From: a virus
Strand: one strand, 5' to 3'
Virus record (IMG/VR): IMGVR_UViG_3300047325_000063
Location: 1-32,870 of that record
DNA: 32,870 nt
Position numbers and translations under genes: made by a program. Under the pieces are notes generated by a model. The model was not told where the DNA came from. It saw only the letters and a program-made list of their open reading frames with translations, and ran no database searches. Shown here piece after piece: positions 1-22,143 of this stretch; the first letter of the stretch is position 1; each line of letters opens with the position of its first letter.

Positions 1-82
1 CGGTATTCTGAAGGAGCGTCAGGCGGTAGTTCATAGCCAAAATCAGAACGTTATAATCGGACTGGGTGAGTGTATTGTCCAT
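1..82 (-). CDS. Unknown protein, N-terminal fragment cut by the window edge
   Basis: An ATG at 82-80 opens a frame that stays open for 27 codons to the left edge and begins MDNTLTQSDYNVLILAMNYR. A GGAG Shine-Dalgarno (complement of 88-91) sits 5 nt upstream, which makes the start convincing. It is the next gene downstream of the giant repeat protein, 80 bp after its stop. The fragment is too short to assign a family. Position after a fibre gene would fit a small tail, chaperone or lysis protein, but that is only inference from context. Confidence 0.7.
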   Translation of the reverse strand, partial: MDNTLTQSDYNVLILAMNYRLTLLQNT

Positions 83-162: not shown

Positions 163-3100
163 TTAGTAGTGTGAGCAGAGAATGATTCCGTTGTGGAAAT
201 TTGTACTGGTGGTGCTTGCCGAAGTCTTGTAGGACACGCTCAGGATACCCGAAGATATAGTTGAGTTGAATCCTGATGCAGTTCCGATGACGACGTTGCC
301 AACAGCAGAAATAATGCCGATGTCACTAAGATTATTGGTAACTCGTAGCATAGCGTAATTTGTGGCTGAGGTCCCACTGCCAATCGTACGAATCGTGATC
401 ATAATCTCCGCATCGAATGGTGTCGCCGAACCGCTTGCAGACGCATTCAGAGTAAACGTTGAGATTGTTGTATCGCTGGTGTTACCACCACTTCCAAACC
501 GGACGGTGAAGGTACTTGTGTTGGCGGCACTACTCGTACAAGTGCCTTGAAGCTTGATCGTGAACGTTGTTCCAGCAGCAAGCGAGGCCGATCCAATAGG
601 GTTGGTAAGTAAGATTGTATCCGTTGTGTTGATTGCGCCAGTATCTGCTATCAATGCTGATCCAGGCCCAATCGATCCACCGGTGCCGCCACTAGTGATG
701 CCTAGCGGCGTTCCCAATGTAACAGCTCCGGTTACGTTGAGAGTTCCAGTTGCTGAGAGATTTCCATTGACGCTTGCCGATGTTGCCCCATAGGTACTCG
801 AGCCGGCAATGTAGGATGATCCTGTTATCGATCCTGTTGCTGTAATCGTCCCGGTAACTGACAACGTGCCGTTTACAAAGGCGCTGGTTGCTCCGTAGGT
901 GCTTGACCCAGCAGCGAAAGAGTTTCCAGTAGCGTTTCCAGAGGTATCGAAAATAACCGTGGCAGCGTTACTCTGACCGTTTGTGTAGAAAGAGATCGCA
1001 CCAGTAGCGGTCCCGATAGTACCGATGTGCAGCCCCGTGCCGCTCTGTTTGATCTGTTGGGTCGTTCCCGCGTTGGAAAAATTGACATAATTACCGCTCG
1101 CGAACACGACGCCTGAATCGCCATAGGCGCTATTTCCACCTCCGGTGAAGAACCCGGCGGCGGTCATGTTCGCGCTGATCGTTACCGCATTGGCTAAAGT
1201 TACGCTTGGAGTCGTGCCCGTGCCGACGTTGATGTTCGACGATGAAGTCAGTCCCGTGAGAGGCGTCGTTACCAAAGCGGCGTTGGGGACGGTAGCATTG
1301 GTTAAACCAGCACCGGATCCATTGAACTGTCCTTGAATCGAAAAATTGCCAGAAACACTAAGAACAGCTTGTGCTGAATTCGACTGTCCTAGAGTGTAGA
1401 AGTCGATCGGACCCGAGTTTGACCCAACTGGCCCAATATGCAAACCCGTTCCGGTTTGATTGATCTGATAGACAGTACCTGAGGTGTTGAAATTGACAGC
1501 GTTTAACGTAGACGTGCCAGTATCGCTGATACCGATACCGCTGATCGTTCCATTGACAACCGCTGACGTAGAGCCATAGCTAGAGGATCCGATTTGGTAT
1601 CCCGAGCCATTGATTTTGCCCCACGACGTGCTGCTTCCAATGACTCCGGTACCAAAAGCAATATCGCTACTGTTTTCAAAGTCGATGAACTGCATCGCCG
1701 TGGAGTCTACGTTGTGGTATATGCGCCAAGCCGCTGTGGTCCACGATGTTCCACCGACTTGACGGTACATTGTCATGTTCAGAGAATCGTTGTTTGCCGA
1801 TCCTCCGTAGATATTGAAGCTTTGTCCTAGGTTGTTGTTCGCTGTCGCTCCCAATGATCCACAGTATAGTTGAGTCTGTAGTGCCCCATAGGTACTCGAC
1901 CCTGCAACGAACGAGTTGGTTGAGGTAATCGTTCCAGTTACCGATAGGTTGCCGTTGATAGATAGGCTACCTGGAATAGTGCCACCGCTTAGGGCAGAAG
2001 TAACAGTTCCAGCTCCCCAAGATCCGCTAGGGTATGACCCGCTGTATACGGGTATATTGCCATTGCTTGGATATTCTCCATAGGCCCAGTCGTAAAGTCC
2101 CTCCATCGACTGTATGAAGGGGATGGAGGGCACATACTGAATCGGAATTGCTCCGATGCCGGCGTACGCTATGACGCCGAGCAACTCATAGTTGGCAGAC
2201 TGGCTGGTAGCATTGTAGCCTGTTCCCGCTGCACCGGTAGCGGTGAAGGCGATAGCGAGTGGTATCGAGCCAGTTACACTCGTACCGGCGGTCCACGGAG
2301 CGAAGACGCCATAGTTAGCACCTGGATATCCTGGCAATGCTTCTACAAAGATAGAGGTGGTAGGCTGAATAACGCAAGTGTATGCTGGTCCTGTCGTTGT
2401 ACCGCTGCCTCTTACTAAGAGCAGACCAGAGCTTCCGAAAGTCAGAGTGCCAGAAGTAACACTGGGCGGAGATCCCAAGCACTGACCCATGACCGTATGG
2501 CGCTGTTGCGCAACGATGGCGTGATTAGCAAAGGGGAGATTGGTTCCCGCAGTGGCTAGAGCGGTATTGTATGTGCCACCCGAGGCGATGACCGTCGTCA
2601 CACTTGTGTCGTGTCGGCTATAAGCAACGGTTCCGCCGTTCATCAGGGAGCCGGCATCACTATTGGTTCCGCCGCTGAGATGCTTGACCTGAAGGCTTCC
2701 GGTAACAACGTGTCGACTCGAGACTTGGTTTGGATTTAGGTATAAGCCATCAGAACCGGTCGTTGAGGCCACAACGGTAGTGACCGGAAGAGCATGAGTT
2801 GCATATGGAAGTATCGTTCCGCTGGTCGGAAGGTTAGCATTGAACGTACCTCCGGATACGATAACCGCCTGAACACCAGGCGAATGCCTGCTGTGAAGTA
2901 GTGCAGATCCCGACATGACATTTGTAACGTCACCAGGAGTGCCACCAATAAGATGCTGCGCTTGAATGGCGCCTGTTACTACATGACGACTCGAGACTTG
3001 ATTTGCATTGAGGTATAGTCCATCAATGCCCGTACCTGAGGCGACTACAGTTGTGACCGGTAATGAGTGGCGAGTATGGAGAAGTAGAGCTCCACTCATA

Positions 3101-6100
3101 AATGCAGAGGTGTCTGTGTTCAGTCCCCCATTAAGGTGTTGGACATTTATAGTCCCGGTTACAACGTGACGTGAACTGACTTGGTTTGGATTGAGGTAGA
3201 GTCCATCTGATCCTGTCGCCGTAGCAATAACAGTGGTTACCTGTAAGGAGTGCCGCGTATGTAGAAGCAAAGCTCCGGACATGAAGGCACTTGTATCGGT
3301 GTTAAGTCCTCCATTAAGATGTTGAACGTTTATAGTTCCCGTGACAACATGTCGACTACTAACTTGGTTAGCGTTCAAATAAAGTCCATCGCTGCCAGTT
3401 GTGGAGGCAATCACCGTAGTAACTGGTGCAGCATGACGAGTCATGAGTATCTGCGCACCGCTCATAAATGCTGTGTTGTCCGTGTTCAAACCGCCGTTCA
3501 GGTGTTGAACATTGATAGCTCCGGTAACAACATGTCGAGAAGAAATTTGATTAGAGTTTAGATATAGGCCTTCACTTCCGGTTGATCCCCCGATAACAGT
3601 TGATGTTTGAACTGACATTGCTCCGTGTAACAGACCAGAGTTTGTTCCCTGTAGCCCAATGTTGGGCTTGTAACCGGATGCAACAGATCCTAATTCAAGC
3701 TGCATCTGTGAAAAGAAGAGATTGGCATTAAAATCAGAAGCTGCGCCAGAAGCAGCCATGATAAGCTTAACTGCGCTGCCAGATCCAACATTAAATGTGG
3801 TTGAGTATTTAACAAAATTGACGCCAGCAGGAACAGTTATTCTGGCAAGCTCAAATCCACTAGAAAGTTGAGCGATTAAGGCAATACTTGATCCAGTAGA
3901 TGAAGCAGTGGTCGTATTAGCAACACAGGAGAGTGTATAGTTATTGTATGGCCCTACTGTGATATATGGAGCATTGGATAGGGTATAGAAAATGGCCCCG
4001 CTTGTCCCACCGGTAGGAACATTTAGATAAACGCTCTGGAAACCATAGAAAGGGCTCCAGTAAAAGTGCGCAGGAGGGTTATTCCAGTAGGCATAAGGTC
4101 CGCCCCCAAAGATGTTATCTGAGTCTGGGATTAGGTTTAGCTGGGAGGCGGCCGTTGCTACAACTGTCGAGAAGTGATTAGCTAGCGGGAGAATAGTACC
4201 AGTTGTAGGCAAGTTTGCATTGAACGTACCGCCGGAGACAATAACTGCCTGTACACCAGGTGAATGTCTGCTGTGAAGCAGCGCAGATCCGGACATAACA
4301 GCTGAAGTGTCGGTGTTTAGCCCGCCGTTTAGGTGCTGGACGTTGATCGCTCCGGTGACCACATGTCTAGTAGAAACCTGGTTCGGATTTAGGTATAAGC
4401 CGTCGACACCAGTCGAAGATGCGATGACTGTCGTTACGGGAGCTGCGTGACTGGTCATCGGGAGGATCGTTCCGCCAGTTGGAAGACTGGCGTTGAACGT
4501 TCCACCGGATGCAATGACCGTCGTTACACTTGTGTCATGACGGGAGTACTTTAGGGTGCCCCCATTCATAACCGCCGTTGTGTCACCTACGGTACCGCCG
4601 ACAAGGTGCTGTGCCTGAATGGTTCCAGTAACAATGTGTCGGCTTGAAACCTGATTAGAGTTAAGGTATAGGCCATCCGATCCGGTAGTAGAAGCTATTG
4701 TTGTGGTTACCGGAGTAGCATGGCTGGTCATCGGGAGGATCGTTCCACCCGTCGGAAGGCTGGCATTGAAAGTTCCACCGGAGGCGATAACCGTCGTTAC
4801 ACCAGCGGCGTGCCGAGAATAGAGTAGTGTATTGGTTCCGCTTGCCATGAGAGGACTGGTGTCAGTTGGTGCAGCTCCTGACAGATGCCTGCCTGAAATC
4901 ACTCCAGGCTGAACGTAAGATCCATCTCCAGTTGCCGGCACTGAGGCAACTGTTGCTTTAACTGAAATATGCTGAGAGCTATACGGTTGCGGTGAAGAGG
5001 AGTAGTTGAAGAAATTTAGGAGTCCTGAGACGCCTGTGTAGCTGGTCGTTCCAGCAGGACTTGCGAGAACAACCGTTGTATCGGTAAAGAGCCCATAGTT
5101 AACCCCATCTACGATTGCCTCAACGGTATTAGAACCGATACCGACTCCGATGATAAGGTTGTAGCTATGATATCCAGTATCGTTTGTCTTTGTAGCTCCA
5201 GCGAAACCTGAAACCGTTCCGCTAGCTCCCGCCAGGAATGTCTGGATGCGGATATTGCCAGTTCCGTCGAGTGCAACACGGTATCCGTTGCTTAACGTAC
5301 CGATCATGACACCGGCAAGATCAGCAGTGGCACCCTTTGCTATCGACATCTGGGAGTTAAGAATAGACCCCGTCGTTAAGAAGGTTGTGGCGGCTTGAAT
5401 GCCGTTGGTTCCTGAAAGCGCGCCGCTCGCATTGAGAGTACCGCTTGGGAAGTTGGAGATCAAGAGCAGGCCACCGGAGCTAATAACGGCCTGAACACCG
5501 GCAGACATGCGGGCGTGATTCAGGCGTTGTGACCCATCCATAAGGTTGGTCGTGTCGCCTGCAGTTCCCCCGGTAAGATGCTGGGCTTGAATCGTGCCCG
5601 TAACTACGTGCCGACTCGAGACCTGGTTGGGATTGAGGTATAGCCCATCAGAGCCAGTTGTCGAAGCAACAACCGTCGTGACTTGCGTAGCGTGAGCAAC
5701 ATACGGCAGGATTGTCCCACCCGTAGGTAGACCCGCATTGAATGTACCGCCGGAAGCGATAACTGCTTGGACGCCAGGCGAATGTCTTGAGTGAAGTAAT
5801 GCAGATCCAGACATTACAGCAGAACTATCAGTATTCAATCCGCCATTGAGGTGTTGAACATTTATAGCACCGGTGACGACGTGACGGGTTGAGACCTGGC
5901 CAGGGTTCATGTACAGTCCATCAGAGCCAGTTGTCGAAGCAACAACTGTTGTGATCTGCGCCGCGTGGGCTACATACGGTAGAATTGTCCCGGTTGTTGG
6001 AAGATTGGCATTGAACGTACCACCGGAAACGATAACCGCTTGAACACCCGGTGAGTGACGAGAGTGGAGCAACGCCGAGCCGGACATAACAGCCGATGTG

Positions 6101-9100
6101 TCTGTATTGAGTCCGCCGTTCAAATGCTGGACGTTGATCGTTCCGGTCACGACGTGACGGCTCGATACTTGATTTGGATTCAGGTATAGTCCGTCGGACC
6201 CAGTCGCGGCAGCGATGACCGTAGTAACCTGCAGAGCATGGTTGGCAATCGGCAGGAGCGTAGCTGCAGTTGGCAGGCCGGCGTTAAACGTACCACCAGA
6301 TGCGATGACCGTGGTAACCCCGGCGGCATGCCTAGTGTAAAGTAGGGTATTGGAGCCACTTGCCATAAGTGGGTTTGTGTCGCTTGTGGCTCCTCCTGAT
6401 AGGTGCCTACCACTGATCACGCCGGGTTGAACGAACGACCCATCACCACCCGTCGTCGCGGCAACGGTGGATTTTATCGAAGCGTGCTGAGAGCTATAGG
6501 ACTCCGGTGAAGCGGTGTACTGGAAGAAGTTGAGAAGCCCGGAAACTCCCGTGTAGCTAGTAGTTCCACAGGGACTCAAGAGAGTTACAGTACTGTCGGT
6601 GAAGACACCATAATTGACACCATCGATGAGGGCCTCGACGGTGTTTGATCCGGCTCCAACCCCAACAATCAGGTTATAGCTGTGATAACCGGTATCGTTG
6701 GTCTTTGTCGCGCCGGCAAAGCCAGAGACCGTTCCGCTTGATCCGGCTACGAACGTCTGAAGTCGAACGTTACCAGTGCCATCTAGGGCAATGCGATACC
6801 CGCCGCTAGCTGTGCCGATCATGACACCAGCAAGATCTCCAGAAACGCCTTTGGCGATGGACATCTTGGAGTTAAGAAGAGCACCGGCGGTCAGGTATGT
6901 CGTTGCTGCTTGGATTCCGTTGGTACCCGATAGGGCTCCGCTGGCATTGAGAGTACCGTTGGGGAAGTTTGAGATTAGAAGCAGGCCACCCGAGCTGATA
7001 ACAGTTTGAACTCCAGCAGACATGCGTGCATGATTGAATCGCTGGGACCCGTCCATCAGATTGGTCGTGTCTCCGGCGGTGCCACCGCTGAGGTGCTGTC
7101 CCTGGAGGGAACCTGTGACAACGTGACGACTTGAAACCTGATTCGGGTTCAAGTACAAACCATCTGAGCCAGTTGTGGCAGCAATTACCGTGGTGACTTG
7201 TGCGGCATGGCTGGTGATCGGTAAGATGGTGCCTGATGTGGGCAGAGCGGCATTGAACGTACCGCTGGCGGTGATAACGGTCATGACCCCGGAGGCATGC
7301 CGCCCATAAGCAAGACCAGACCCAGACATCATTGTTGCTGTATCGCCCGGCGTTCCACCGGTCAAGTGCTGTGCTTGGATCGTTCCAGTTACGACATGAC
7401 GGCTAGCAACCTGCCCTGGCGCCAGGTATAGACCATCTGCGCCGGTAGCTGCACCAATGACTGTCGTAACCTGCCCTGCGTGGTTTGCCAGTGGAAGGAT
7501 TGTTCCAGTTGTCGGAAGGTTAGCGTTGAAGGTTCCACTGGAAACGATAACGGCTTGAACGCCTGGCGAGTGTCTCGAGTGAAGCAAGGCCGATCCACTC
7601 ATAACAGCAGACGTATCTGTGTTCAATCCACCGTTGAGGTGTTGAACGTTAATTGACCCGGTTACTACATGCCGAGTAGAAACCTGATTTGGATTGAGAT
7701 ATAGGCCATCTGTACCGGTAGTAGAAGCGATAACCGTCGTGACTGGAGTGGCGTGACGAGTCATCAGTAGCGTGTTTGTGCCACTGGACATCAGTGCCGT
7801 AGTGTCGGTTACTGCTCCGCCAGATAGGTGCCGTCCGCTAACGACACCTGGATTGAGGTATGAGCCATCCGTTCCAGAAACGCCAGCGACTGTTGCGATA
7901 ACGCCAGAGGCATGCCTGGTGTAGACGAGGCCGGCACCTGCCAGTAGAGGCGATACGTCGCCTGGCGTACCACCTGTAAGATGCTGGGCCTGGATGGCCC
8001 CCGTGACAACATGACGAGACGAAACCTGACTGGGGTTTAGGAATAGACCATCACTGCCTGTTGTCGATGCAATCACCGTGGTAACTGGTGCAGCATGTCG
8101 GCTCATGAGCAGCGCTGAACCAGACATTACGTTTGAGGTGTCGCCGGGGGTTCCGCCGACGATGTGCTGTGCTTGGATCGTGTTGTTTACGACATGCCGC
8201 GAGCTAACCTGACCAGAGGCTAGATACAGGCCTTCGGCTCCTGTTGTGGCAGAGATGACCGTAGTGATCTGAACCGGGTGGTTGACCAGCGGCAGGATCG
8301 TTCCGGTCGTCGGAAGACCAGCATTGAAGCTACCGCCCGAGGCAATGACCGTTTGAACACCCGGCGAGTGACGGCTGTGAAGCAGAGCCGATCCAGACAT
8401 GACCGCGGTCGTATCGCCAGGCGTACCACCGACGATGTGCTGGCCTTGGATTGCTCCTGTAACGACATGCCGGCTGCTTACTTGGTTGGCGCTCAAGTAG
8501 AGCCCGTCAACTCCCGTGGTCGCAGCGATCACGCTCGTGAGCGGTAGTGCGTGACGGGTATAAAGAACCGTGCCAGAACCCAACAAGGCTCCGGTGTCAG
8601 ACGTCTGTCCTCCCACGAGGTGACGGCCGGTGATAACCCCCGGTTGGACGAAGGATCCATCGGTGCCTGAGGCCGCCGCGATCGTCGCCGTCACTGAGGG
8701 GACATGACGGGTATAGAGCAGCGTGCCGCTGCCTAAGAGCGCCCCCGTGTCGCTTCCGGCGCCGCCGACCAGGTGACGACCTGATATGACCCCCGGCTGC
8801 ACGTAAGATCCCTCCGCACCGCTGGTTGGGCTGACGGTCGACCGGATCGAGAGGTGCTGGGCAGTATAGGGCTGTGGTGAGGAGGTGTACTGGAAGAAGT
8901 TTAAGAGACCCGAGACGCCGGTGTAACTCGTCGTCCCGGCGCTTGCACCCAGGGTCACGGTCGTATCGGTTAGGATACCGTAGTTGGTTCCGTCGATGAT
9001 CGCTTCGACTGTGTTCGACCCAGAACCCACAGCAACGATCAGGGTGTACCGGTGGTATCCCGTGTCGTTGGTCTTGGTTGCCCCTGCGAAGCCGGCAACC

Positions 9101-12100
9101 GAGGCGCTTGCGCCGGCGATCAATGTCTGAACCCGGACGTTGCCCGTGCCGTCGAGCGCGAGGCGATAGCCGGCTCCGGTGGCTCCGATCATGATGCCTG
9201 CGAGATCACCTGAGACGCCCTTGGCGATCGACATCTGGGAGTTAAGAATTGTTCCCAAAGAAGTCAGATAGGTAGTGACCGCCTGGACGCCGTCGGTGCC
9301 CGAGAGAGCGCCGCTGGCATTCAGGACGCCGTTGGGGAAGTTCGAGATCAGCAGGGCCCCACCAGAGCTGATGACCATCTGAACCCCGGATGACATGCGA
9401 ACGTGATTGAAGCGCTGGGCTCCATCCATCAGGTTCGATGTGTCTCCCGCGGTGCCACCGGCGAGATGCTGCCCTTGTAGGGAGCCCGTTACAACATGTC
9501 GGCTCGAGACCTGATTCGGGTTTAAGAAGAGACCATCTGCTCCTGTCGAGGTAGCGATGACCGTCGTGATCTGAGCGGGGTGATTGACATAGGGAAGAAT
9601 CGTGCCGGTACTCGGCAGCCCCGCGTTATAAGTACCCCCGGACGCAATAACTGTCTGGACAGCAGGAGAGTGACGGGAGTGCAGTAGCGCAGAGCCGGCC
9701 ATGACGGCCGTGCTATCACCTACAGTACCACCACTGAGGTGCTGTACCTGGAGCGAACCAGTAACAACGTGACGAGAAGAGACCTGATTCGGGTTCAAGT
9801 AGAGTCCATCAGATCCAGTGCTCGTTGCGATTACGGTCGTGACCGGCGTCGCGTGCCGACTCATCAAGAGGGCCGATCCGGACATGACGTTAGATACGTC
9901 ACCGGGAGTGCCGCCCAGAATGTGCTGTGCCTGGATGGCTCCAGTTATAACGTGACGCGAACTAACCTGGTTCGGATTCATGTACAGACCATCACTGCCG
10001 CTAGCGCTGGAGAGAGTGGTCTTTACTGAAAGGTCATGCGCCAAGTAGGCAAGAGTGTTTGTCGAAGGAGATGCCACCGGACCGAGGCGATACCCGGTCG
10101 CGACTGATCCCGCTTCGATCTGCGGACAGGCAAATATAGTTGAGCCACTTGTAAAAATGGCACCGTTGTTATTAAGAGCAACCTGTACGCTGTTGCTTAG
10201 AGGTGTAAAACTAAAGCTGTACCTATTCCAAGACCCACCAGTGCCACCCGCGCCCGAATTAACGGCTACGTATTGCTGTCCGAACCCATTGGTTCCATCT
10301 AGTACAAAAATTCCATTGGAGACCGAGCTGGCGTTAGACTTGATAAAGTAGGAAAAGGTATAGACGCTTCCGCTTACAACGGGACATTTTGTTCCGTAGT
10401 AGACCCAGGCTCCGCTTCCAAATGGGGTAATGTTAATTGCACCGTTTCCATCTGGCCCTGTGCCATTGGCGATAAAAATCATGCCGGTAACTGCTGGGTA
10501 GGGAATGTTCCAATACGTGTTACCAAATGACATTGCAGAATCAACCACGACGTTAGCTTGAAAGCCTGAAACGGCCGATGTAATTACCGTTGCATCGTGG
10601 TTGGCCTGCGGTAAGCGACTTGTGACACCACCCGGAGGACTGACATTGAGCTGCCCGCTGCCGCTGACGTTAGAAACGACCTGCAGTAACTGAGCCGAGT
10701 GGCGGGTGTGCAGTATGTTGCCACTCGACATGAAAGCGGCAGTATCGGTCGGAGCACCGCCGTTCAAGTGTTGAACGTTGATTGCTCCCGTGACTACGTG
10801 CCGGCTTGAGACCTGGTTGGGATTTAAGTAGAGTCCATCGGAACCCGTTGATGCGGCAATGACCGTAGTAACCTGTGAGGCATGGTTAGCAATCGGCAAG
10901 AGGGTGGCTGCCGTTGGTAGGCCAGCGTTAAATGTACCTCCTGACGCGATGACCGTGGTGACCCCAGAGGCATGTCTGCTATAGAGCAATGTGTTGGAGC
11001 CACTGGACATCAAGATGCCAGTATCATTTGTGGCGCCGCCTGTTAGATGACGCCCAGAAATAACACCAGGCTGAACATAAGATCCATCTGCTCCAGTTGT
11101 TGAAGCTACTGTTGCTTTAACAGAAGCATGTTGAGAGCTGTACGGTTCGGGAGAGGAAGAATACTGGAAGAAGTTTAATAGGCCGGAGACACCTGTGTAG
11201 CTTGTGGTTCCACAGGGGCTTCCTAGGGTAACTGTAGTATCCGTGAATACCCCGTAGTTAACTCCATCAATAATGGCTTCAACGGTATTTGAACCGGTGC
11301 CAACGCTAACAATTAGGTTATACCGATGGTATCCAGTATCATTGGCTTTTGTAGCTCCGGCGAAGCCCGCAACTGAAGCACTGGCTCCAGCTAAGAATGT
11401 CTGCAGTCGTACGTTTCCGGTACCATCAAGAGCGATGCGATACCCATTCCCTGTAGCACCGATCATAACCCCAGCGATGTCAGTCAATGCGCCCTTGGAG
11501 ATTGACATCTGGGAATTGAGAATAGCCCCCGTCGTTAAGTACGTGGTGGCTGCTTGAATACCGTTGGTACCAGCAAGAGCTCCACTTGCGTTGAGGGTAC
11601 CGTTAGGGAAGTTCGAGATCAGGAGCAAGCCGCCTGAGCTGATCACGGCTTGAACGCCAGCTGACATTCGAACGTGATTCAGACGCTGCGAACCATCCAT
11701 GAGGTTGGTTGTATCTCCAGCGGTACCGCCAGAGAGATGCTGGCCTTGGAGAGATCCCGTTACGACATGACGCGAGCTGACTTGGTTGGGATTTAAAAAC
11801 AGCCCATCAGAACCAGTCGCGGCTGCGATTACGGTTGTTACTTGATTCGCGTGACTTGTAATTGGAAGGATGCTACCTGAGGTAGGCAGGGCCGCATTGA
11901 AAGTTCCACCGGAGGCGATAACTGTTTGAACGCCAGGGGCATGACGAGAATATAGTAAAGCTGAACCTGCCATAACGGCAGTTGTATCGCCAACGGTTCC
12001 CCCCGTTAAGTGTTGTGCTTGAATCGCACCAGTGACAACGTGTCGAGACGAAACTTGTCCCGGGTTTAGATATAGGCCATCAGAACCAGTGCTTGTCGCT

Positions 12101-13836
12101 ATAACAGTTGTTACTGGGACAGCATGGCGTGTCATGAGCAGAGCTGAGCCACCCATAACAGCTGTATTGTCTCCTGGGGTACCCCCGCTTAAATGCTGTG
12201 CCTGGAGGGAGCCAGTGACGACGTGTCTGGAAGTAACCTGATTTGGATTGAGATACAGACCATCCGCTCCGCTAGATGAAGCGATTGTTGTTGTAACTGG
12301 AAGCGCATGCCTGGTCATCAACAAAGCAGAACCGGCCATAACAGCTGCTGTATCGCCTGGTGTTCCGCCGGTAATGTGTTGAGCCTGGATTGCTCCGGTC
12401 ACGACATGTCGAGAGCTGACTTGCGAAGGATTTAAATACAGTCCGTCAGACCCGGTGCTAGTAGCAATTACAGTTGTTACCGGTGTAGCGTGACGAGTCA
12501 TAAGAAGTGCCGACCCAGCCATCACGGCGGCCGTATCTCCCGGAGTGCCGCCGGTTATATGTTGGGCCTGTATTGCTCCCGTAACGACGTGACGTGAGGC
12601 AACCTGGTTTGGGTTCATCCATAGCCCGTCTGGCCCAGCGGTTGCAGACGCAATTACACTTGTCATCGGTGTTGCGTGACGGTTATAAAGTAAGGCTCCG
12701 CTTCCCATTAAGGGGCTAGTATCGTTTGATGCACCTCCAGAAAGATGGCGGCCGGAGATGACTCCAGCGTTTACATACGATCCATCTGCCCCGGAAACTC
12801 CGGCGATAGTTGCGACAACACCTGATGCATGACGGGTATATACGAGACCAGATCCAGCCAGTAGTGGACTGGTATCTCCAGCATTTCCACCTGTTAGGTG
12901 CTGGGCTTGAATAGCACCGGTTACCACATGGCGGGACGAAACCTGATTGGGATTTAAATACAGGCTATCAATCCCAGTAGAAGCGGCGATGACAGTTGTT
13001 AACGGGGCGGCATGGCGGGTATAGAGCAGGGTTCCGCTGCCCATCAGGGTTCCGGTATCGGTTGGTGCTCCACCTAATAGATGACGACCGCTGACGACAC
13101 CTGGATTGAGGAACGAGCCATCGGCACCGCTCGCAGAGGCAATGGTAGACTTTGTTACATTGGTGTTGTACTGGTAGATCAGGTTGCCGTTGGCATCAAA
13201 CTCGTTCTCGATCGTCGAGATCTCGCTGGCCACAGCAGCATTTGTGATCGGGACTCCGGACTCATAGATGATTGATCCGGGTGTGATGTACGCCGGGTCG
13301 GCGCCCTCGATGAGGCTGAATCCGATCGTACCGTTGAGTACGAAGGGCGGAGTCAAAATCGCCGCTGCGTAGATCGTCGTGTCGCCGTAAACGAAAATCT
13401 GTAGTGAGTTGGTCGTCGGCGATAAGATCGAGACGGTGAAAGCATGCTCGTGGAGGTCAAGCGGGTACTTGGCCTCGTACTGAGCCAAGTAGATCGGCTT
13501 CCAGCGATCGTGCGACACCGAGTAGATCCGGCAGTAGCCGTCGTACTCAAAGAGAACGACGTAGCCGTTCTTGAAGGTTGTCGCATTGCTCGGGGCATCG
13601 GTGTAAATGGCAAAGCCAAGAGCCCCCTTCAAGCTTGAGCGCTGGAAGACGGCTCCGAACGTAACGATCGACGTCGTCCCTGCCGCCGGCTGCTGCCGTA
13701 CACGGTTCGACGGATAAATTAACCGGTTTCCGTTGGGTAGGACGAGCCGGTTGCTGACGGTGTCGGCCTGCACGCCGGCAAAGACCGACCCGATCGCACC
13801 TGCATTTGTCCCGCTTGCCGGGGTCACGTTGCTCAA
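163..13836 (-). CDS. Giant modular fibre/adhesin-type virion protein (4557 aa)
   Basis: This one uninterrupted frame has no recognised enzymatic motif and looks like a surface fibre or adhesin. Residues 1-225 form a beta-rich, concanavalin-like N-terminal region. Residues about 229-3780 are an array of 50-61-residue units. Type A, GLYLNPNQVSSRHVVTG followed by QHLxGG, occurs 26 times by eye; type B, GSYVQPGVISGRHLxGG, occurs 8 times; 14 spacers read SGGTFNAGLPT. Four lectin-like modules of about 172 residues and two jelly-roll-like modules interrupt the array. The last 770 residues carry GTLSVTGTITxTG-type repeats common in phage fibres and end in a beta-rich domain; no peptidase S74 chaperone is seen. 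Start is TTG: the frame has no ATG for about 260 codons, and AGGAG lies 7 nt before this TTG. Attachment to tail or capsid is undecided; the fibre role is inferred. Confidence 0.8.
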   Translation of the reverse strand: MSNVTPASGTNAGAIGSVFAGVQADTVSNRLVLPNGNRLIYPSNRVRQQPAAGTTSIVTFGAVFQRSSLKGALGFAIYTDAPSNATTFKNGYVVLFEYDGYCRIYSVSHDRWKPIYLAQYEAKYPLDLHEHAFTVSILSPTTNSLQIFVYGDTTIYAAAILTPPFVLNGTIGFSLIEGADPAYITPGSIIYESGVPITNAAVASEISTIENEFDANGNLIYQYNTNVTKSTIASASGADGSFLNPGVVSGRHLLGGAPTDTGTLMGSGTLLYTRHAAPLTTVIAASTGIDSLYLNPNQVSSRHVVTGAIQAQHLTGGNAGDTSPLLAGSGLVYTRHASGVVATIAGVSGADGSYVNAGVISGRHLSGGASNDTSPLMGSGALLYNRHATPMTSVIASATAGPDGLWMNPNQVASRHVVTGAIQAQHITGGTPGDTAAVMAGSALLMTRHATPVTTVIATSTGSDGLYLNPSQVSSRHVVTGAIQAQHITGGTPGDTAAVMAGSALLMTRHALPVTTTIASSSGADGLYLNPNQVTSRHVVTGSLQAQHLSGGTPGDNTAVMGGSALLMTRHAVPVTTVIATSTGSDGLYLNPGQVSSRHVVTGAIQAQHLTGGTVGDTTAVMAGSALLYSRHAPGVQTVIASGGTFNAALPTSGSILPITSHANQVTTVIAAATGSDGLFLNPNQVSSRHVVTGSLQGQHLSGGTAGDTTNLMDGSQRLNHVRMSAGVQAVISSGGLLLISNFPNGTLNASGALAGTNGIQAATTYLTTGAILNSQMSISKGALTDIAGVMIGATGNGYRIALDGTGNVRLQTFLAGASASVAGFAGATKANDTGYHRYNLIVSVGTGSNTVEAIIDGVNYGVFTDTTVTLGSPCGTTSYTGVSGLLNFFQYSSSPEPYSSQHASVKATVASTTGADGSYVQPGVISGRHLTGGATNDTGILMSSGSNTLLYSRHASGVTTVIASGGTFNAGLPTAATLLPIANHASQVTTVIAASTGSDGLYLNPNQVSSRHVVTGAINVQHLNGGAPTDTAAFMSSGNILHTRHSAQLLQVVSNVSGSGQLNVSPPGGVTSRLPQANHDATVITSAVSGFQANVVVDSAMSFGNTYWNIPYPAVTGMIFIANGTGPDGNGAINITPFGSGAWVYYGTKCPVVSGSVYTFSYFIKSNASSVSNGIFVLDGTNGFGQQYVAVNSGAGGTGGSWNRYSFSFTPLSNSVQVALNNNGAIFTSGSTIFACPQIEAGSVATGYRLGPVASPSTNTLAYLAHDLSVKTTLSSASGSDGLYMNPNQVSSRHVITGAIQAQHILGGTPGDVSNVMSGSALLMSRHATPVTTVIATSTGSDGLYLNPNQVSSRHVVTGSLQVQHLSGGTVGDSTAVMAGSALLHSRHSPAVQTVIASGGTYNAGLPSTGTILPYVNHPAQITTVIATSTGADGLFLNPNQVSSRHVVTGSLQGQHLAGGTAGDTSNLMDGAQRFNHVRMSSGVQMVISSGGALLISNFPNGVLNASGALSGTDGVQAVTTYLTSLGTILNSQMSIAKGVSGDLAGIMIGATGAGYRLALDGTGNVRVQTLIAGASASVAGFAGATKTNDTGYHRYTLIVAVGSGSNTVEAIIDGTNYGILTDTTVTLGASAGTTSYTGVSGLLNFFQYTSSPQPYTAQHLSIRSTVSPTSGAEGSYVQPGVISGRHLVGGAGSDTGALLGSGTLLYTRHVPSVTATIAAASGTDGSFVQPGVITGRHLVGGQTSDTGALLGSGTVLYTRHALPLTSVIAATTGVDGLYLSANQVSSRHVVTGAIQGQHIVGGTPGDTTAVMSGSALLHSRHSPGVQTVIASGGSFNAGLPTTGTILPLVNHPVQITTVISATTGAEGLYLASGQVSSRHVVNNTIQAQHIVGGTPGDTSNVMSGSALLMSRHAAPVTTVIASTTGSDGLFLNPSQVSSRHVVTGAIQAQHLTGGTPGDVSPLLAGAGLVYTRHASGVIATVAGVSGTDGSYLNPGVVSGRHLSGGAVTDTTALMSSGTNTLLMTRHATPVTTVIASTTGTDGLYLNPNQVSTRHVVTGSINVQHLNGGLNTDTSAVMSGSALLHSRHSPGVQAVIVSSGTFNANLPTTGTILPLANHAGQVTTVIGAATGADGLYLAPGQVASRHVVTGTIQAQHLTGGTPGDTATMMSGSGLAYGRHASGVMTVITASGTFNAALPTSGTILPITSHAAQVTTVIAATTGSDGLYLNPNQVSSRHVVTGSLQGQHLSGGTAGDTTNLMDGSQRFNHARMSAGVQTVISSGGLLLISNFPNGTLNASGALSGTNGIQAATTYLTAGALLNSKMSIAKGVSGDLAGVMIGTASGGYRIALDGTGNVRLQTFVAGSSGTVSGFAGATKTNDTGYHSYNLIVGVGAGSNTVEALIDGVNYGVFTDSTVTLLSPCGTTSYTGVSGLLNFFQYTASPESYSSQHASIKSTVAATTGGDGSFVQPGVISGRHLSGGATSDTNPLMASGSNTLLYTRHAAGVTTVIASGGTFNAGLPTAATLLPIANHALQVTTVIAAATGSDGLYLNPNQVSSRHVVTGTINVQHLNGGLNTDTSAVMSGSALLHSRHSPGVQAVIVSGGTFNANLPTTGTILPYVAHAAQITTVVASTTGSDGLYMNPGQVSTRHVVTGAINVQHLNGGLNTDSSAVMSGSALLHSRHSPGVQAVIASGGTFNAGLPTGGTILPYVAHATQVTTVVASTTGSDGLYLNPNQVSSRHVVTGTIQAQHLTGGTAGDTTNLMDGSQRLNHARMSAGVQAVISSGGLLLISNFPSGTLNASGALSGTNGIQAATTFLTTGSILNSQMSIAKGATADLAGVMIGTLSNGYRVALDGTGNIRIQTFLAGASGTVSGFAGATKTNDTGYHSYNLIIGVGIGSNTVEAIVDGVNYGLFTDTTVVLASPAGTTSYTGVSGLLNFFNYSSSPQPYSSQHISVKATVASVPATGDGSYVQPGVISGRHLSGAAPTDTSPLMASGTNTLLYSRHAAGVTTVIASGGTFNASLPTGGTILPMTSHATPVTTTIASTTGSDGLYLNSNQVSSRHIVTGTIQAQHLVGGTVGDTTAVMNGGTLKYSRHDTSVTTVIASGGTFNASLPTGGTILPMTSHAAPVTTVIASSTGVDGLYLNPNQVSTRHVVTGAINVQHLNGGLNTDTSAVMSGSALLHSRHSPGVQAVIVSGGTFNANLPTTGTILPLANHFSTVVATAASQLNLIPDSDNIFGGGPYAYWNNPPAHFYWSPFYGFQSVYLNVPTGGTSGAIFYTLSNAPYITVGPYNNYTLSCVANTTTASSTGSSIALIAQLSSGFELARITVPAGVNFVKYSTTFNVGSGSAVKLIMAASGAASDFNANLFFSQMQLELGSVASGYKPNIGLQGTNSGLLHGAMSVQTSTVIGGSTGSEGLYLNSNQISSRHVVTGAINVQHLNGGLNTDNTAFMSGAQILMTRHAAPVTTVIASTTGSDGLYLNANQVSSRHVVTGTINVQHLNGGLNTDTSAFMSGALLLHTRHSLQVTTVIATATGSDGLYLNPNQVSSRHVVTGTINVQHLNGGLNTDTSAFMSGALLLHTRHSLPVTTVVASGTGIDGLYLNANQVSSRHVVTGAIQAQHLIGGTPGDVTNVMSGSALLHSRHSPGVQAVIVSGGTFNANLPTSGTILPYATHALPVTTVVASTTGSDGLYLNPNQVSSRHVVTGSLQVKHLSGGTNSDAGSLMNGGTVAYSRHDTSVTTVIASGGTYNTALATAGTNLPFANHAIVAQQRHTVMGQCLGSPPSVTSGTLTFGSSGLLLVRGSGTTTGPAYTCVIQPTTSIFVEALPGYPGANYGVFAPWTAGTSVTGSIPLAIAFTATGAAGTGYNATSQSANYELLGVIAYAGIGAIPIQYVPSIPFIQSMEGLYDWAYGEYPSNGNIPVYSGSYPSGSWGAGTVTSALSGGTIPGSLSINGNLSVTGTITSTNSFVAGSSTYGALQTQLYCGSLGATANNNLGQSFNIYGGSANNDSLNMTMYRQVGGTSWTTAAWRIYHNVDSTAMQFIDFENSSDIAFGTGVIGSSTSWGKINGSGYQIGSSSYGSTSAVVNGTISGIGISDTGTSTLNAVNFNTSGTVYQINQTGTGLHIGPVGSNSGPIDFYTLGQSNSAQAVLSVSGNFSIQGQFNGSGAGLTNATVPNAALVTTPLTGLTSSSNINVGTGTTPSVTLANAVTISANMTAAGFFTGGGNSAYGDSGVVFASGNYVNFSNAGTTQQIKQSGTGLHIGTIGTATGAISFYTNGQSNAATVIFDTSGNATGNSFAAGSSTYGATSAFVNGTLSVTGTITATGSITGSSYIAGSSTYGATSASVNGNLSATGTLNVTGAVTLGTPLGITSGGTGGSIGPGSALIADTGAINTTDTILLTNPIGSASLAAGTTFTIKLQGTCTSSAANTSTFTVRFGSGGNTSDTTISTFTLNASASGSATPFDAEIMITIRTIGSGTSATNYAMLRVTNNLSDIGIISAVGNVVIGTASGFNSTISSGILSVSYKTSASTTSTNFHNGIILCSHY
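3660..4148 (-). repeat. Jelly-roll/carbohydrate-binding-like module 2 in the giant protein
   Basis: This insert of about 163 residues starts near QLNLIPDSDNIFGGG and ends QMQLELGSVASGYKPN. It has the same architecture as module 1 (NYTLSCVANT, then VKYSTTFNV, then the QLELGSVASGY ending) but low residue identity. The DNA is visibly AT-rich compared with neighbouring units. Confidence 0.5.
4969..5485 (-). repeat. Lectin-like module, copy 4
   Basis: This fourth copy carries GYRVALDGTGNIRIQTF, GYHSYNLII and VEAIVDGVNYG, again between an NLMDGSQRLNHARM unit and a GSYVQPGVISGRHL unit. The conserved flanks in all four copies show that lectin module and flanks duplicate as one cassette. Confidence 0.6.
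6484..6999 (-). repeat. Lectin-like module, copy 3
   Basis: This third copy carries GYRIALDGTGNVRLQTF, GYHSYNLIV and VEALIDGVNYG, between an NLMDGSQRFNHARM unit and a GSFVQPGVISGRHL unit. It is very close to copy 1 at protein level. Confidence 0.6.
8854..9370 (-). repeat. Lectin-like module, copy 2
   Basis: This second copy has the same order of motifs (GYRLALDGTGNVRVQTL, GYHRYTLIV, VEAIIDGTNYG) and the same flanking units. Its DNA looks more GC-rich than the other three copies, and it is the most divergent at protein level, with an extra residue in LTSLGTILNSQ. Confidence 0.6.
10078..10570 (-). repeat. Jelly-roll/carbohydrate-binding-like module 1 in the giant protein
   Basis: This insert of about 164 residues starts near SGFQANVVVDSAMSFG and ends with CPQIEAGSVATGYRLGP. 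The middle has SGSVYTFSYFIKS and WNRYSFSFTP. A QxExGSVATGY ending is typical of beta-sandwich modules in phage structural proteins. It is locally more AT-rich than the flanking repeats. Sugar binding is inferred, not shown. Confidence 0.5.
11128..11640 (-). repeat. Lectin-like module, copy 1 (first in the protein)
   Basis: This about 172-residue module runs from ISSGGLLLISNFPNGTLN to PYSSQH. Its core, GYRIALDGTGNVRLQTF, GYHRYNLIV and VEAIIDGVNYG, resembles a concanavalin/LamG-type beta sandwich. It is preceded by a special type A unit ending NLMDGSQRLNHVRM and followed by a type B unit. Fold assignment is by pattern only. Confidence 0.6.
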
Positions 13837-13843
13837 GCAAGAG

Positions 13844-13848
13844 CTCCT
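13844..13848 (-). promoter_or_regulatory. Ribosome binding site fixing the TTG start of the giant gene
   Basis: The minus strand reads AGGAG here, 7 nt before the TTG at 13836-13834. No ATG or better-placed GTG lies in frame nearby, so this site decides the start. It lies 6 nt downstream of the 12-bp hairpin at 13855-13882. Confidence 0.75.
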
Positions 13849-13854
13849 GACGGA

Positions 13855-13882
13855 AGCGGCGAGCGCCGTAGCGCTCGCCGCT
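13855..13882 (-). terminator. Perfect 12-bp hairpin upstream of the giant gene
   Basis: AGCGGCGAGCGC (13855-13866) and GCGCTCGCCGCT (13871-13882) form a perfect 12-bp GC-rich stem with a 4-nt loop. It begins 33 nt after the stop of the 150-aa gene and ends 6 nt before the Shine-Dalgarno of the giant gene. On the minus strand only TT follows, so it is a poor intrinsic terminator in that direction; it may instead be an attenuator, processing site or mRNA-stabilising structure. Confidence 0.55.
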
Positions 13883-13914
13883 TTAGAGACTTCCCTTTAG
13901 CTAGCCTGCTCGGC

Positions 13915-14367
13915 TTAGCTGTAGTTGTTCTCCAGCAGGTCGCCGGCTGCCACCGAGGTGATACCCTGCCAGCCGAAGCCACCGCCGCTGACGCCAGCGA
14001 GTGAGGTGTTGTAGAGCGTACCGCTGCCGGCGAATGTCTCGCCCGAGACGGCGATCGTGTTGTGCTGTGCGAACAGGGCATAGTTGTTGGCCGAATCCGT
14101 GTGATACGGCAACATACCCGCACTCCAGGTCCCGGTTGCAGACGTTACCGCCGTACCGGAGACGAGCGCCAGGCGCCCTGAGTATACAGCGTTGCTGATG
14201 TTGACGAGCTGGGCGGCGCTGAAACTCGCAAGGTTGCCGGAGAGCGGGCTGCCGCGGAAGAGATTGGTACCCGTCAGCGGATCCCAGTACGATGCGTTGG
14301 GATCTTGATAGGTCCCGATCGTATTACTACCGGAGACGGTCAGGTTGAGCGAGACGATCAGTGCCAT
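13915..14367 (-). CDS. Small virion-surface-type protein with shared N-terminal module (150 aa)
   Basis: The family is not recognised. The protein begins MALIVSLNLT, and residues about 26-72 (YWDPLTGTNLFRGSP, then FSAAQLVNISNAV and LALVSG) match the N-termini of the 580-aa and 117-aa proteins nearby. The remaining 75 residues are rich in Gly, Ser, Thr and Ala, with no membrane segment or enzyme motif. The start is ATG with AAGGAG 8 nt upstream. It lies just before the giant gene, separated from it by the 12-bp hairpin. A role as a short fibre or decoration subunit, anchored by the common N-terminal module, is an inference from context and composition. Confidence 0.75.
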   Translation of the reverse strand: MALIVSLNLTVSGSNTIGTYQDPNASYWDPLTGTNLFRGSPLSGNLASFSAAQLVNISNAVYSGRLALVSGTAVTSATGTWSAGMLPYHTDSANNYALFAQHNTIAVSGETFAGSGTLYNTSLAGVSGGGFGWQGITSVAAGDLLENNYS

Positions 14368-14399: not shown

Positions 14400-14753
14400 T
14401 TACGTCTTGGCGCCGGTGACCCGCTCGTGATTAGCGACCGCACTGCGCGCTTGAGCTTGCATTTGTTCCTGCTTGGCCGAGTCTTCGGCCGTCCAGCGGT
14501 ATCGCGGCGCGCCAAAGGTCTTGATGCCCTCGAGCTGTAGTCCGGCGGGCACGTCGCCCTTGGAGATTACGAGCAGTCCGGCCCGAATGCCCCGAGCGAC
14601 TGGCTCGAGCTCCTTGAGCGAGAAGTTCTCGAGATCGCCCGATTCGGGCCGGCTCAAAAAGAGATTGGTCTTGGTCGTGGGATCATACCATGAGTTGGCC
14701 TCGGGGTTGCGGGGGTTGAGTGCGACTCGAAAGCTTTTTGAGGATGGTGGCAT
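14400..14753 (-). CDS. Small protein made mostly of the shared N-terminal module (117 aa)
   Basis: The family is not recognised. Residues about 20-67 (SWYDPTTKTNLFLSRP, ENFSLKELEPVARGI, GLLVIS) are clearly homologous to the N-terminal module of the 150-aa and 580-aa proteins. The remaining part, about 50 residues, is charged and probably helical (AKQEQMQAQARSAVANHE). So this copy carries the module without any beta-rich body. ATG start with AGGAG 6 nt upstream; 32 bp separate it from the next gene. It could be an adaptor or capping subunit for the partners with full-length bodies, but nothing in the sequence proves this. Confidence 0.75.
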   Translation of the reverse strand: MPPSSKSFRVALNPRNPEANSWYDPTTKTNLFLSRPESGDLENFSLKELEPVARGIRAGLLVISKGDVPAGLQLEGIKTFGAPRYRWTAEDSAKQEQMQAQARSAVANHERVTGAKT

Positions 14754-14805: not shown

Positions 14806-15297
14806 TTAACCAAATCTGGCGAAGAAAGGCTGGCTAAGGTAGACATACTGTCCAGAATTTATCGTACAGTCATTACATTGAAGGGCAATGGCAACTTTTG
14901 ATATATTGGCAGGACAAGTCCATAGGGTAAAATTGCGATTATATCCATTGGTAAAAAGCAGGCCAGTATAATTTGTTGCTAGGGGATCTGAGGATACAAA
15001 GAGTTGGCAATTCCCTAAAGTAATCGATGAGATACTGCCCCAACAGGAGCCTCCATAAACTCCACCTGGCACTACTGAAATGTATTGATATACATTAGGG
15101 TAGCCTACGAGCGGAGAACCGGTTCCTAAAAATGAAACTGCGTTTGATCCGCTTGGTCCGTTTGCTGTGATCGTTGGATTTCCAGCACTAGTTTGAAATG
15201 CCCACCCGGCGGCGCTGTTCAGTAATCCAGGATTGACAAGCAGGTTTTCTCCTAGATTTTTACTGCTTATTGAAGATTTTTTTGTTCCGATTAACAT
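14806..15297 (-). CDS. Small jelly-roll/carbohydrate-binding-like protein (163 aa)
   Basis: After a short Ser/Lys-rich start, residues about 15-35 read LGENLLVNPGLLNSAAGWAF, a typical opening of carbohydrate-binding-like jelly-roll domains in phage virion proteins. It is followed by VYQYISVVPGGVYGGSCWG and an aromatic, Cys-containing beta-rich region ending in LSQPFFARFG. It resembles, at pattern level, the two inserts of this type in the giant protein. The ATG directly follows the TAA of the 580-aa gene (TAAATG) with AGGA 5 nt upstream, so translation is probably coupled. The DNA is much more AT-rich than the capsid genes: one 60-base line counted by hand is 40% GC, against 67% in the capsid gene. 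It lacks the N-terminal module of its neighbours, so it may be a detached C-terminal domain of the 580-aa protein. Confidence 0.7.
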   Translation of the reverse strand: MLIGTKKSSISSKNLGENLLVNPGLLNSAAGWAFQTSAGNPTITANGPSGSNAVSFLGTGSPLVGYPNVYQYISVVPGGVYGGSCWGSISSITLGNCQLFVSSDPLATNYTGLLFTNGYNRNFTLWTCPANISKVAIALQCNDCTINSGQYVYLSQPFFARFG

Positions 15298-17040
15298 TTA
15301 ATCCTGTAAGACACCAACGGTTAGATACAGATCTGTTGTTGTTGTAAAGGTAGGCGTACCTGTTGTGACTAGTACACCATAAAGTCCGGCAGTGGCAGAC
15401 GTTAAAGATTGCCCGATACCAGAGATCGTATAGAAAGTTCCAGTTCCGAGTCCGCTATCATAGCCAGATAGATAGAATGGGCCAATAACTTTGCTAATGT
15501 CGGCGGAGTTAATAGCGGGTGAGCTTTTATCTGTCCAAGTCGAGCTTGTTGGATTTGCGGTGAAAAGATAAAGCTTAAAACCAGCAGTCTGATTACTTTT
15601 GCATGTTAATACAATACTCTCAAGAACTCCGGTCTGAGCTGTTCCAAAAATAGAGGCCCAAGATAGAAGTCCGCCAACTACTTGACCTGCAGTATAAGCG
15701 CTGCCCGATGTACAGGTTACTGTAGTTCCGACGATACCAGAACGCGTTGCAATACTGCCAATGATGTTTGTTCCCGCCGGGAGGGCTTGAGTCGGATCGA
15801 GTCCAACGGTAACGATTGAGGTATCGGGGGCGGAAGAGACGATCGTCGTGACCGTGACCTGTGGTCCGGTTCCGGTCAAAGCTGTGCTGAGTCGAACACG
15901 GAACTGAGAGAACCCGGCGACCGGGATCTGCCAGGCATGGCTCGTGGCGCTAGCGCATGAGAATGTGAGATCGGTGAGATACGAATCAGTTCGCGGAGCC
16001 TTGACCCCAAGCCACGTGACACCGTCATAGACTTCCCAGGTCAGTGTACCACCGGTAATCGTCCCCGAGGGAACGACTGTCACGATGACGGTATCGTAGC
16101 CATTGACCGTCGAGGTTGCAGCCGTGTTGACTGCCGTTCCTGAAGACCAGGCTACGGCCGCTGGTGCCAGGTACGCATCGTAAATCGGTATGGGGTTAGT
16201 TACTGAGACCGCGGCGCCGGCGACCTGTACGCCCACTGAGCCGAGCAAGTTCGTGCCGGCCGGGAGAGCCTGGCTTGGATCGAGGCCAACCGTAACGATC
16301 GACGTATCCGGAGCCGACGAGGTGATGATCGTCAGCGAGACGCCTGGACTCGTTCCGCTAAGGGCCGTACTTAACCGGACGCGGAACTGTGGGAAGCCGG
16401 CAACCGGGATCTGCCAAGCATGGTTGCCTGGAGCTCCCGACATCGTGAAGGTGCTGTCGGTCTGATATGAATCGGTCCGAGGAGCTTTAACGCCTAGCCA
16501 GTTTACTCCATCATAGAGTTCCCATGTCAGCGCACCGCCGGTGATCGTACCTGAGAGGACAGCTGTTACTACGACAGTATCGTAGCCGGCAGTATTCACG
16601 GTGAGAGCTGTATTGAGAGCGGTTCCGGAAGCCCATGCCACGGTCGATGGCGCCAAGTAGGCATCGTACATGGGAATTGGATTGGTTGGACCGACCGCGG
16701 CTCCGGAAACTTGAATACCAACAGATCCGATAGTTTGGCTTCCTGCGTTTAGACCTACCGCCCCAATGATGTTTCCACCAGCTGGTAGCGACGGTAGGCT
16801 ACTAACTGCGACGGTTGTTGCCGGTCCGGTAATCGTTGCAGTCGGGAGGGATCCAGATACCAGGACCAGGATTGAGCTGGCAACCGCTTGGGAGATGTTG
16901 GTAAGTTGAGCCGTAGAGAAAGCGCTGAGGTCAGACGACGTCGGGGCAGAACGTGTTAGAGACACGCCCGTGAGTGGATCGTAGTATCCAAGCTGGTCGA
17001 GATTCGGCCCGCTGGGACTAAACTTGACGATGAGCGCCAT
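15298..17040 (-). CDS. Virion-surface-type protein with shared N-terminal module and tandem 162-aa repeat (580 aa)
   Basis: Residues about 18-64 (GYYDPLTGVSLTRSAP, FSTAQLTNISQAV, LVLVSG) form the N-terminal module shared with the 150-aa and 117-aa proteins. Residues about 105-266 and 267-428 are two tandem copies of a beta-rich domain (NPIPxYDAYLAP, LTWExYDGVxWLGVKAPRTD, HAWQIPVAGFxQFRVRLSTAL). The last about 140 residues form a different domain (YTAGQVVGGLL, LESIVLTCKSNQTAGFKLYL, DISKVIGPFYLSG) of a kind common in phage structural proteins of unknown function. It follows the capsid gene after a strong hairpin. ATG start with AAGGAG 5 nt upstream. The C-terminal part is more AT-rich than the rest. 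A capsid decoration fibre or spike is a reasonable inference. Confidence 0.75.
   Translation of the reverse strand: MALIVKFSPSGPNLDQLGYYDPLTGVSLTRSAPTSSDLSAFSTAQLTNISQAVASSILVLVSGSLPTATITGPATTVAVSSLPSLPAGGNIIGAVGLNAGSQTIGSVGIQVSGAAVGPTNPIPMYDAYLAPSTVAWASGTALNTALTVNTAGYDTVVVTAVLSGTITGGALTWELYDGVNWLGVKAPRTDSYQTDSTFTMSGAPGNHAWQIPVAGFPQFRVRLSTALSGTSPGVSLTIITSSAPDTSIVTVGLDPSQALPAGTNLLGSVGVQVAGAAVSVTNPIPIYDAYLAPAAVAWSSGTAVNTAATSTVNGYDTVIVTVVPSGTITGGTLTWEVYDGVTWLGVKAPRTDSYLTDLTFSCASATSHAWQIPVAGFSQFRVRLSTALTGTGPQVTVTTIVSSAPDTSIVTVGLDPTQALPAGTNIIGSIATRSGIVGTTVTCTSGSAYTAGQVVGGLLSWASIFGTAQTGVLESIVLTCKSNQTAGFKLYLFTANPTSSTWTDKSSPAINSADISKVIGPFYLSGYDSGLGTGTFYTISGIGQSLTSATAGLYGVLVTTGTPTFTTTTDLYLTVGVLQD
15757..16242 (-). 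repeat. Tandem 486-bp repeat, copy 2 (580-aa protein)
   Basis: This copy encodes residues about 267-428, from GSVGVQVAGAAVSVTNPIP to LPAGTNIIG. A third copy starts (GSIATRSG) but is replaced at once by the unrelated C-terminal domain. Confidence 0.75.
16243..16728 (-). repeat. Tandem 486-bp repeat, copy 1 (580-aa protein)
   Basis: This copy encodes residues 105-266 of the 580-aa protein, from IGSVGIQVSGAA to the LPAGTNLL that opens the next copy. The translated copies are highly similar, while the DNA differs at many third positions. Confidence 0.75.
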
Positions 17041-21691: not shown

Positions 21692-22143
21692 TAGGCGAGC
21701 CTCTTCAGAAGGTTGACTAGCACTTGCTCGCAGCCACCAAGATCGGTGACGATCTGCGATCCGGTAAATCTTACGACCTGCCAGCCAAGGTTTTCGATCT
21801 CTCGCTGGCGTTTGAGGTCCCGGCGCTTTTGGGCCGGCGAAGAATGATAGGCAGCCCCGTCGCACTCGATCGCGATATCGGACTCAGGGAGAGCAAAATC
21901 GAGGTAATACGATCGGCCGTTATGGCGAGTGACTCGGTACTGAGCCCGGTACTTCAGGCCCATCGTTTGCAGCAGCCAGCCTAAACGCCGTTCGATGTAA
22001 GACGGGACGTATCTCTGCTTTACAGTACGCCGCGGCTTGGCTGTTTTCGGCTTCTTCCGAGCTTGGGTAGTCTTTGTCGCCCGGCGAGTAGTCTTCTTGC
22101 TGGCTTTCTTGGCGGCTGCCTTACGCGGCCGTGGGGAGGGCAT
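21691..22143 (-). CDS. DUF559/Vsr-like endonuclease with basic tail (150 aa)
   Basis: Residues 1-44 form a strongly basic Lys/Arg tail (19 basic residues), likely a DNA-binding arm. Residues about 45-150 match the DUF559/very-short-patch-repair-like branch of the PD-(D/E)xK nucleases: YIERRLGWLL, YYLDFALPESDIAIECDG with candidate Asp82, Glu93 and Asp95, then AYH (His100), KRQREIENLGWQVVRFTGSQ. The likely role is a DNA nick or cut on packaged or host DNA, but substrate and specificity cannot be read. Its first 23 bp overlap the end of the portal gene in another frame, and its stop overlaps the next start (TAATG), so it is embedded in the head operon. The Shine-Dalgarno is weak, which suggests coupled translation. 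Among head genes it may act in DNA processing at the portal. Confidence 0.8.
   Translation of the reverse strand: MPSPRPRKAAAKKASKKTTRRATKTTQARKKPKTAKPRRTVKQRYVPSYIERRLGWLLQTMGLKYRAQYRVTRHNGRSYYLDFALPESDIAIECDGAAYHSSPAQKRRDLKRQREIENLGWQVVRFTGSQIVTDLGGCEQVLVNLLKRLA

Follow-up and report, generated by a model that had tools for sequence, protein, structure and literature searches.

A giant modular gene in the post-capsid slot of a large myophage, a candidate virion-surface glycan adhesin

Gene neighbourhood and phage lineage

The window, by which we mean the whole stretch of DNA analysed, comprises the 32,870 bases of a metagenomic IMG/VR record. Its genes are arranged in the order terminase, portal, capsid, small proteins and a giant gene, shortly past which the contig stops. 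The following genes were assigned, all on the minus strand:

28420 to 30276, minus strand: large terminase subunit (homology)
22121 to 24580, minus strand: portal protein, 819 aa (homology)
17130 to 18245, minus strand: major capsid protein (homology)
15298 to 17040, minus strand: 580-aa protein with an N-terminal small domain and an internally duplicated region (sequence comparison)
14806 to 15297, minus strand: 163-aa protein, stand-alone relative of the J modules described below (family match to a profile that included this protein)
14400 to 14753, minus strand: 117-aa protein, member of the small-domain family nearest to the copies in contigs L005 and L003 (sequence comparison)
13915 to 14367, minus strand: 150-aa protein opening with the small post-capsid domain, a possible virion anchor (sequence comparison)
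163 to 13836, minus strand: giant fibre/adhesin gene, 4557 aa, 457 kDa, TTG start

Some neighbours have features of their own. The portal protein has a C-terminus resembling MuF-type head morphogenesis domains, with a weak match among PHROGs, and the end of the portal gene is overlapped by a gene for a 150-aa protein (21691–22143, minus strand) which, by eye, has the look of a very-short-patch-repair-type endonuclease. In the 580-aa protein, a region of roughly 150 aa is present twice; the search of IMG/VR returned no confirmed relative of this protein. At positions 1–81 (minus strand), a further gene begins (MDNTLTQSDYNVLILAMNYRL...) and is truncated by the contig end.

The capsid protein is 46.6%, 38.9% and 25.5% identical to those of Moorella phage MTATph1, Bacillus phage KLEB27-3 and Acinetobacter phage ME3, respectively (E 8e-96 to 3e-24), and the terminase is homologous to the same lineage (E 3e-72 to 1e-20). 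Among IMG/VR contigs, capsid identity is 78–81% for L002–L005 and 50% for L006–L010, and related capsid genes were found in Paenibacillus, Alicyclobacillus and Oceanobacillus contigs. In the ME3 record, the terminase, portal, capsid, sheath and hub are annotated as homologous to those of Bacillus phage 0305φ8-36. Judged by these homologies, the window comes from a large myophage with a contractile tail, of which it is a fragment, and this phage is kin to MTATph1, KLEB27-3 and ME3 (0305φ8-36 lineage). The window ends before the contractile-tail genes; sheath- and tube-like genes were read by eye in L003, and sheath genes are annotated in KLEB27-3 and MTATph1. Our literature search found no paper on either of the latter two phages.

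A single open frame of repeated modules

Read from 13836 to 163 on the minus strand, the giant gene contains 4557 codons and no internal stop, with its stop codon at 163–165; the largest other frame in the region spans at most 98 aa. Given a stop frequency of 4.7% in the other five frames, an opening of this length would arise by chance with a probability of about 10^-96. The single intact frame of the original prediction was thus borne out, and its strand is minus. The TTG start is preceded by an AGGAG ribosome site 7 nt upstream. The 457 kDa product is rich in Gly, Thr, Ser and Ala and contains only 29 Lys and 26 Glu residues. Its parts, all on the minus strand, are:

13153 to 13836, minus strand: N-terminal domain, aa 1–228 (concanavalin-like, as suggested by its sequence pattern only)
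2512 to 13152, minus strand: array of 55 modules, aa 229–3775 (segmentation)
11119 to 11652, minus strand: L module 1, lectin-like insert (segmentation)
8845 to 9381, minus strand: L module 2 (segmentation)
6475 to 7008, minus strand: L module 3 (segmentation)
4960 to 5493, minus strand: L module 4 (segmentation)
10024 to 10593, minus strand: J module 1, CBM4-like jelly roll (weak Pfam CBM_4_9 match, Foldseek CBM4)
3604 to 4161, minus strand: J module 2, J-type by sequence comparison
757 to 2511, minus strand: linker domain, then a shaft rich in Gly, Ser and Thr that carries 'SVTGTITATG'-type repeats, aa ~3776–4360 (direct reading)
166 to 756, minus strand: C-terminal head, aa ~4361–4557 (sequence match to a protein of L026)

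Mechanical segmentation covered aa 229–3775 without gaps. It yielded 26 A units (61–62 aa), eight B units (51–54 aa), which differ from A in lacking the ten-residue block VVTGAIQAQH, 14 spacers (s; 29–30 aa), four L inserts (178–179 aa) and two J inserts (186–190 aa). These numbers match exactly those first counted by eye, with one degenerate spacer (s*) in addition, and the giant modular gene is confirmed as a real observation. The modules follow one another in the order B A B A A A A s A L B s A s* J A A s A L B B A s A A B A s A s A L B s A s A s A L B s A s A s J A A A A s A s.

Most modules open with a TTVIAS-like strand and 49 of the 55 end with H-x2-3-[VILM]. The dipeptide RH occurs in every A (26/26) and B (8/8) unit, and each of the 26 A units also contains QH or KH. 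The L inserts sit in a fixed cassette: each of the four is preceded by an A variant ending in ...NH(V/A)RMS(A/S)GV and followed by a B unit.

A metagenomic contig with so many repeats, whose end lies close to the gene, could hold an assembly artefact, which the original prediction had named as a finding that would overturn it, or a decaying pseudogene. The divergence of the repeats speaks against both. For the 21 compared 61-aa A units, the median identity was 66% at the protein level (max. 95%) and 60% at the nucleotide level. Their pS of 0.80 equals the value expected for random synonymous draws from the gene's own codon usage, meaning that the repeats differ at nearly all synonymous sites able to differ; pN was 0.25, and about 0.07 in the closest pairs. 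Because pN lies far below pS, the frame is under protein-level selection, and the combination of saturated synonymous sites and conserved protein rules against a misassembled array as well as against a frame in decay. Together with the shortness of the exact repeats, the longest of which measures 29 nt within the 13.7-kb gene, this pattern identifies the repeats as old duplications kept by selection on the protein. The length of the open frame and the independent contigs that carry giant genes in the same slot argue in the same direction. As far as the sequence tells, we reject an artefact or pseudogene as very improbable.

For comparison, the capsid genes of three related phages differ at a pS of 0.54–0.64. 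By this yardstick, the array's duplications seem to predate the divergence of the three phages, yet the repeat is absent from the other two; arrival by exchange, loss in the other phages or faster evolution could each explain this. The array illustrates a route to stability: its copies keep their protein sequence, but full randomisation of the synonymous sites leaves recombination few exact DNA repeats to act on. The idea that DNA repeats are actively avoided was considered and found unsupported, as the gene has more exact k-mer repeats than codon-shuffled versions of itself.

Resemblances of the modules

The J modules gave a Pfam match to CBM_4_9 (E 0.007) of 17.1 bits, below the cut-off of 25.9. 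An AlphaFold2 model of J, built from a five-row alignment, was of low confidence (pLDDT 46, pTM 0.51). When this low-confidence model was compared with the PDB in Foldseek, the first six matches (E 2.5e-4 to 7.9e-4) were all CBM4 modules or variants engineered from one, with 12–13% identity in the top rows, and superposition on CBM4 gave a Z score of 8.8 and an r.m.s.d. of 3.5 over 113–116 residues. The match of J to the jelly-roll fold of CBM4 modules is thus a tentative one, made with a low-confidence model and accompanied by a sub-threshold profile score; the two tests, each weak, agree that J modules resemble CBM4 carbohydrate-binding domains. Viral structures matched by the J model include tail-fibre and neck-passage proteins, and J modules also match tail-fibre PHROGs weakly.

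The L modules had no Pfam match, no convincing PDB match and no usable fold match, and their alignment retrieved no confirmed locus in IMG/VR. By eye, they and the N-terminal domain look concanavalin- or lectin-like, purely in their sequence pattern. The N-terminal domain gave one weak Pfam match (SH3b_T, E 0.024), and its residues 21–195 are 43% identical to residues 109–284 of the giant protein of L005. Of the sugar-binding heads originally proposed, J has gained a weak profile and fold match to CBM4, while L stays lectin-like by pattern.

For the A/B repeat, we found no solved relative, no Pfam match and no phage match by tblastn, and on these searches it is an orphan. The array had no phage match by megablast or tblastn, all phage matches of one A unit plus spacer were non-significant, and neither a four-module query nor the A-unit alignment retrieved a confirmed IMG/VR locus. 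PHROG 31002 and 21014 were rejected as array families, since their scores are only sums of weak repeat matches. The profile searches recommended in the original prediction therefore gave the weak CBM_4_9 match for J and no Pfam match for A/B or L. Structure prediction of the array covered a single chain of 765 aa, for which the AlphaFold2 model (pLDDT 31) was unusable.

At 41% identity, the C-terminal head matches the end of a fibre/spike-like protein of 1571 aa from another phage (L026, 2043–6755). Besides this shared head, that protein has repeated STHGDTT-type segments.

The post-capsid slot and a possible virion-surface adhesin

In the window, the giant gene lies directly after the capsid gene and its small neighbours; its position between capsid and tail genes is completed by the relatives, in which the tail genes beyond are seen. 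Two relatives with 78–80% capsid identity to the window also hold giant proteins in this slot: one of 2826 aa in L005 and one of about 3306 aa (3310 codons stop to stop) in L003. The joined contigs L003 and L015 (111 kb) carry the capsid gene, small proteins, the giant gene and then Ig-, sheath-, tube- and tape-measure-like genes, as judged by pattern and order, with a baseplate J homologue about 32 kb beyond the giant gene. The slot of L010 contains several smaller proteins and a patatin-like one; in the joined contigs L010 and L017 (a 161-kb relative), this phospholipase-type protein lies at 18634–19464, between capsid and tail genes.

The three giants share modules but not repeats. The N-terminal domain is common to the window and L005, and J-type modules occur in the window, L003 and L005. 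Unlike the window protein, the L005 giant is built of repeats resembling beta domains of about 100 aa, and the L003 giant contains collagen-like GPTGPTGP stretches; the two have in common an extra N-terminal domain of about 90 aa. In the window, only a 78-nt gap with the ribosome site (13837–13914) precedes the giant gene, and it holds no domain of this type. Behind the capsid gene, the window, L003, L005, L010 and the Bacillota contigs all encode a small domain (VALNP...YDPxTGxNL...), and the same domain opens the 580-aa and 150-aa proteins of the window. A PDB profile search with it was empty; by analogy with repeated domains of 0305φ8-36, it may be a virion anchor.

We consider it somewhat likelier than even that the gene product is a giant virion fibre working as a multivalent sugar adhesin, where we infer location, trimerisation and sugar binding. 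The original reading, a very long fibre or a capsid-surface adhesin, is partly supported: it fits the slot after the capsid gene, the CBM4-like J modules and the shared C-terminal head. The N-terminal side would be attached to the capsid or neck, and the A, B and spacer modules would build up a long shaft of beta structure that is probably a trimer. From this shaft, the L and J inserts would project as glycan-binding heads, with the C-terminal head capping the tip. Many weak contacts with the host envelope or extracellular polysaccharide could then keep the phage near cells until its tail fibres engage, in an attachment both multivalent and reversible. Wholesale exchange of the gene's content among relatives would change the surface while leaving the core virion genes untouched. 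β-Helices and triple β-spirals rise by 0.25–0.9 Å per residue; on the assumption that the shaft, with its 2458 residues, is β-structured, a fibre length of roughly 60–220 nm can be estimated. Counting against this reading are the orphan A/B repeat, the low confidence of the J model and the absence from the window protein of the ~90-aa N-terminal domain of the L003 and L005 giants, which leaves it with no identified attachment domain.

A capsid or neck site is more likely than the tail tip because of the position in the head cluster and because KLEB27-3 has a separate block of dedicated tail-fibre genes beyond its baseplate (61–77 kb, with the capsid gene at 15.8 kb). The same block makes it unlikely that the protein is an ordinary receptor-binding tail fibre encoded at an unusual position, as does the placement of the giants in the head cluster of two relatives, one of which has some 32 kb between its giant and the baseplate gene. 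Such a fibre would nevertheless share the build of long tail fibres, a beta-rich shaft with sugar-binding modules, and would account for the weak tail-fibre PHROG matches of J and for a C-terminal head in common with a fibre/spike-like protein. For a giant capsid fibre, whose dedicated locus has its content exchanged wholesale among relatives, a more speculative and rather improbable extension is that the conserved histidines of the joints and A units, if they line a trimer axis, could stiffen the fibre as a ladder of histidines or metal ions.

The main rival keeps the adhesin role and moves the site. The giant could make up most of a large fibre, curly or corkscrew in shape, on the tail, along the lines proposed for genes of 0305φ8-36; the curly fibres of that phage leave the upper baseplate, and its indel module, orfs 126–134, holds candidates for them together with low-copy virion proteins (PMC2147016). 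The homologies annotated between ME3, a relative of this capsid lineage, and 0305φ8-36 in terminase, portal, capsid, sheath and hub lend weight to this reading. However, the 0305φ8-36 candidates are, by description, proteins present in high copy and not a single giant chain, and it is from gene numbering that orfs 126–134 appear to occupy this slot. We regard a curly fibre as possible but clearly the less probable site.

Compared by description only, the 0305φ8-36 module resembles the window in having variable extra virion-protein genes by the head genes of a related large myophage, known since 2007 (PMC2147016), and its repeated domains, proposed as virion anchors, are likened to the small post-capsid domain. 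It differs in comprising several separate genes, whereas the window has different repeats, all in a single chain of 4557 aa. Carbohydrate binding is reported for the capsid proteins T4 Hoc, T5 pb10, SPP1 gp12 and phi29 gp8.5 (PMC7602432). Long flexible capsid appendages are present on Agrobacterium phages 7-7-1 and Atu_ph07 (PMC12796354, PMC6102473), likened to the window independently of any sequence link, and those of 7-7-1 bind the host flagellum (PMC12796354). The protein was originally set apart from known phage fibres by its length. Its size is indeed unusual but has precedents in the ~2800–3300-aa slot proteins of its relatives and in huge phages, whose largest proteins, some tentatively annotated as structural, reach 7,694 aa (PMC7162821), a likeness of size that leaves composition aside. 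Proteins of that length and variable modules by the head genes were thus already known. What is new is a family of orphan repeats whose joints follow a strict motif, its union with CBM4-like inserts in one chain, and the comparison revealing that close relatives fill one slot with giants of differing content. This capsid–tail slot appears to hold giant, exchanged, probably sugar-binding fibre-like proteins. Capsid and curly fibres of large phages are known from microscopy, their proteins mostly unassigned, and the slot offers a concrete gene to test.
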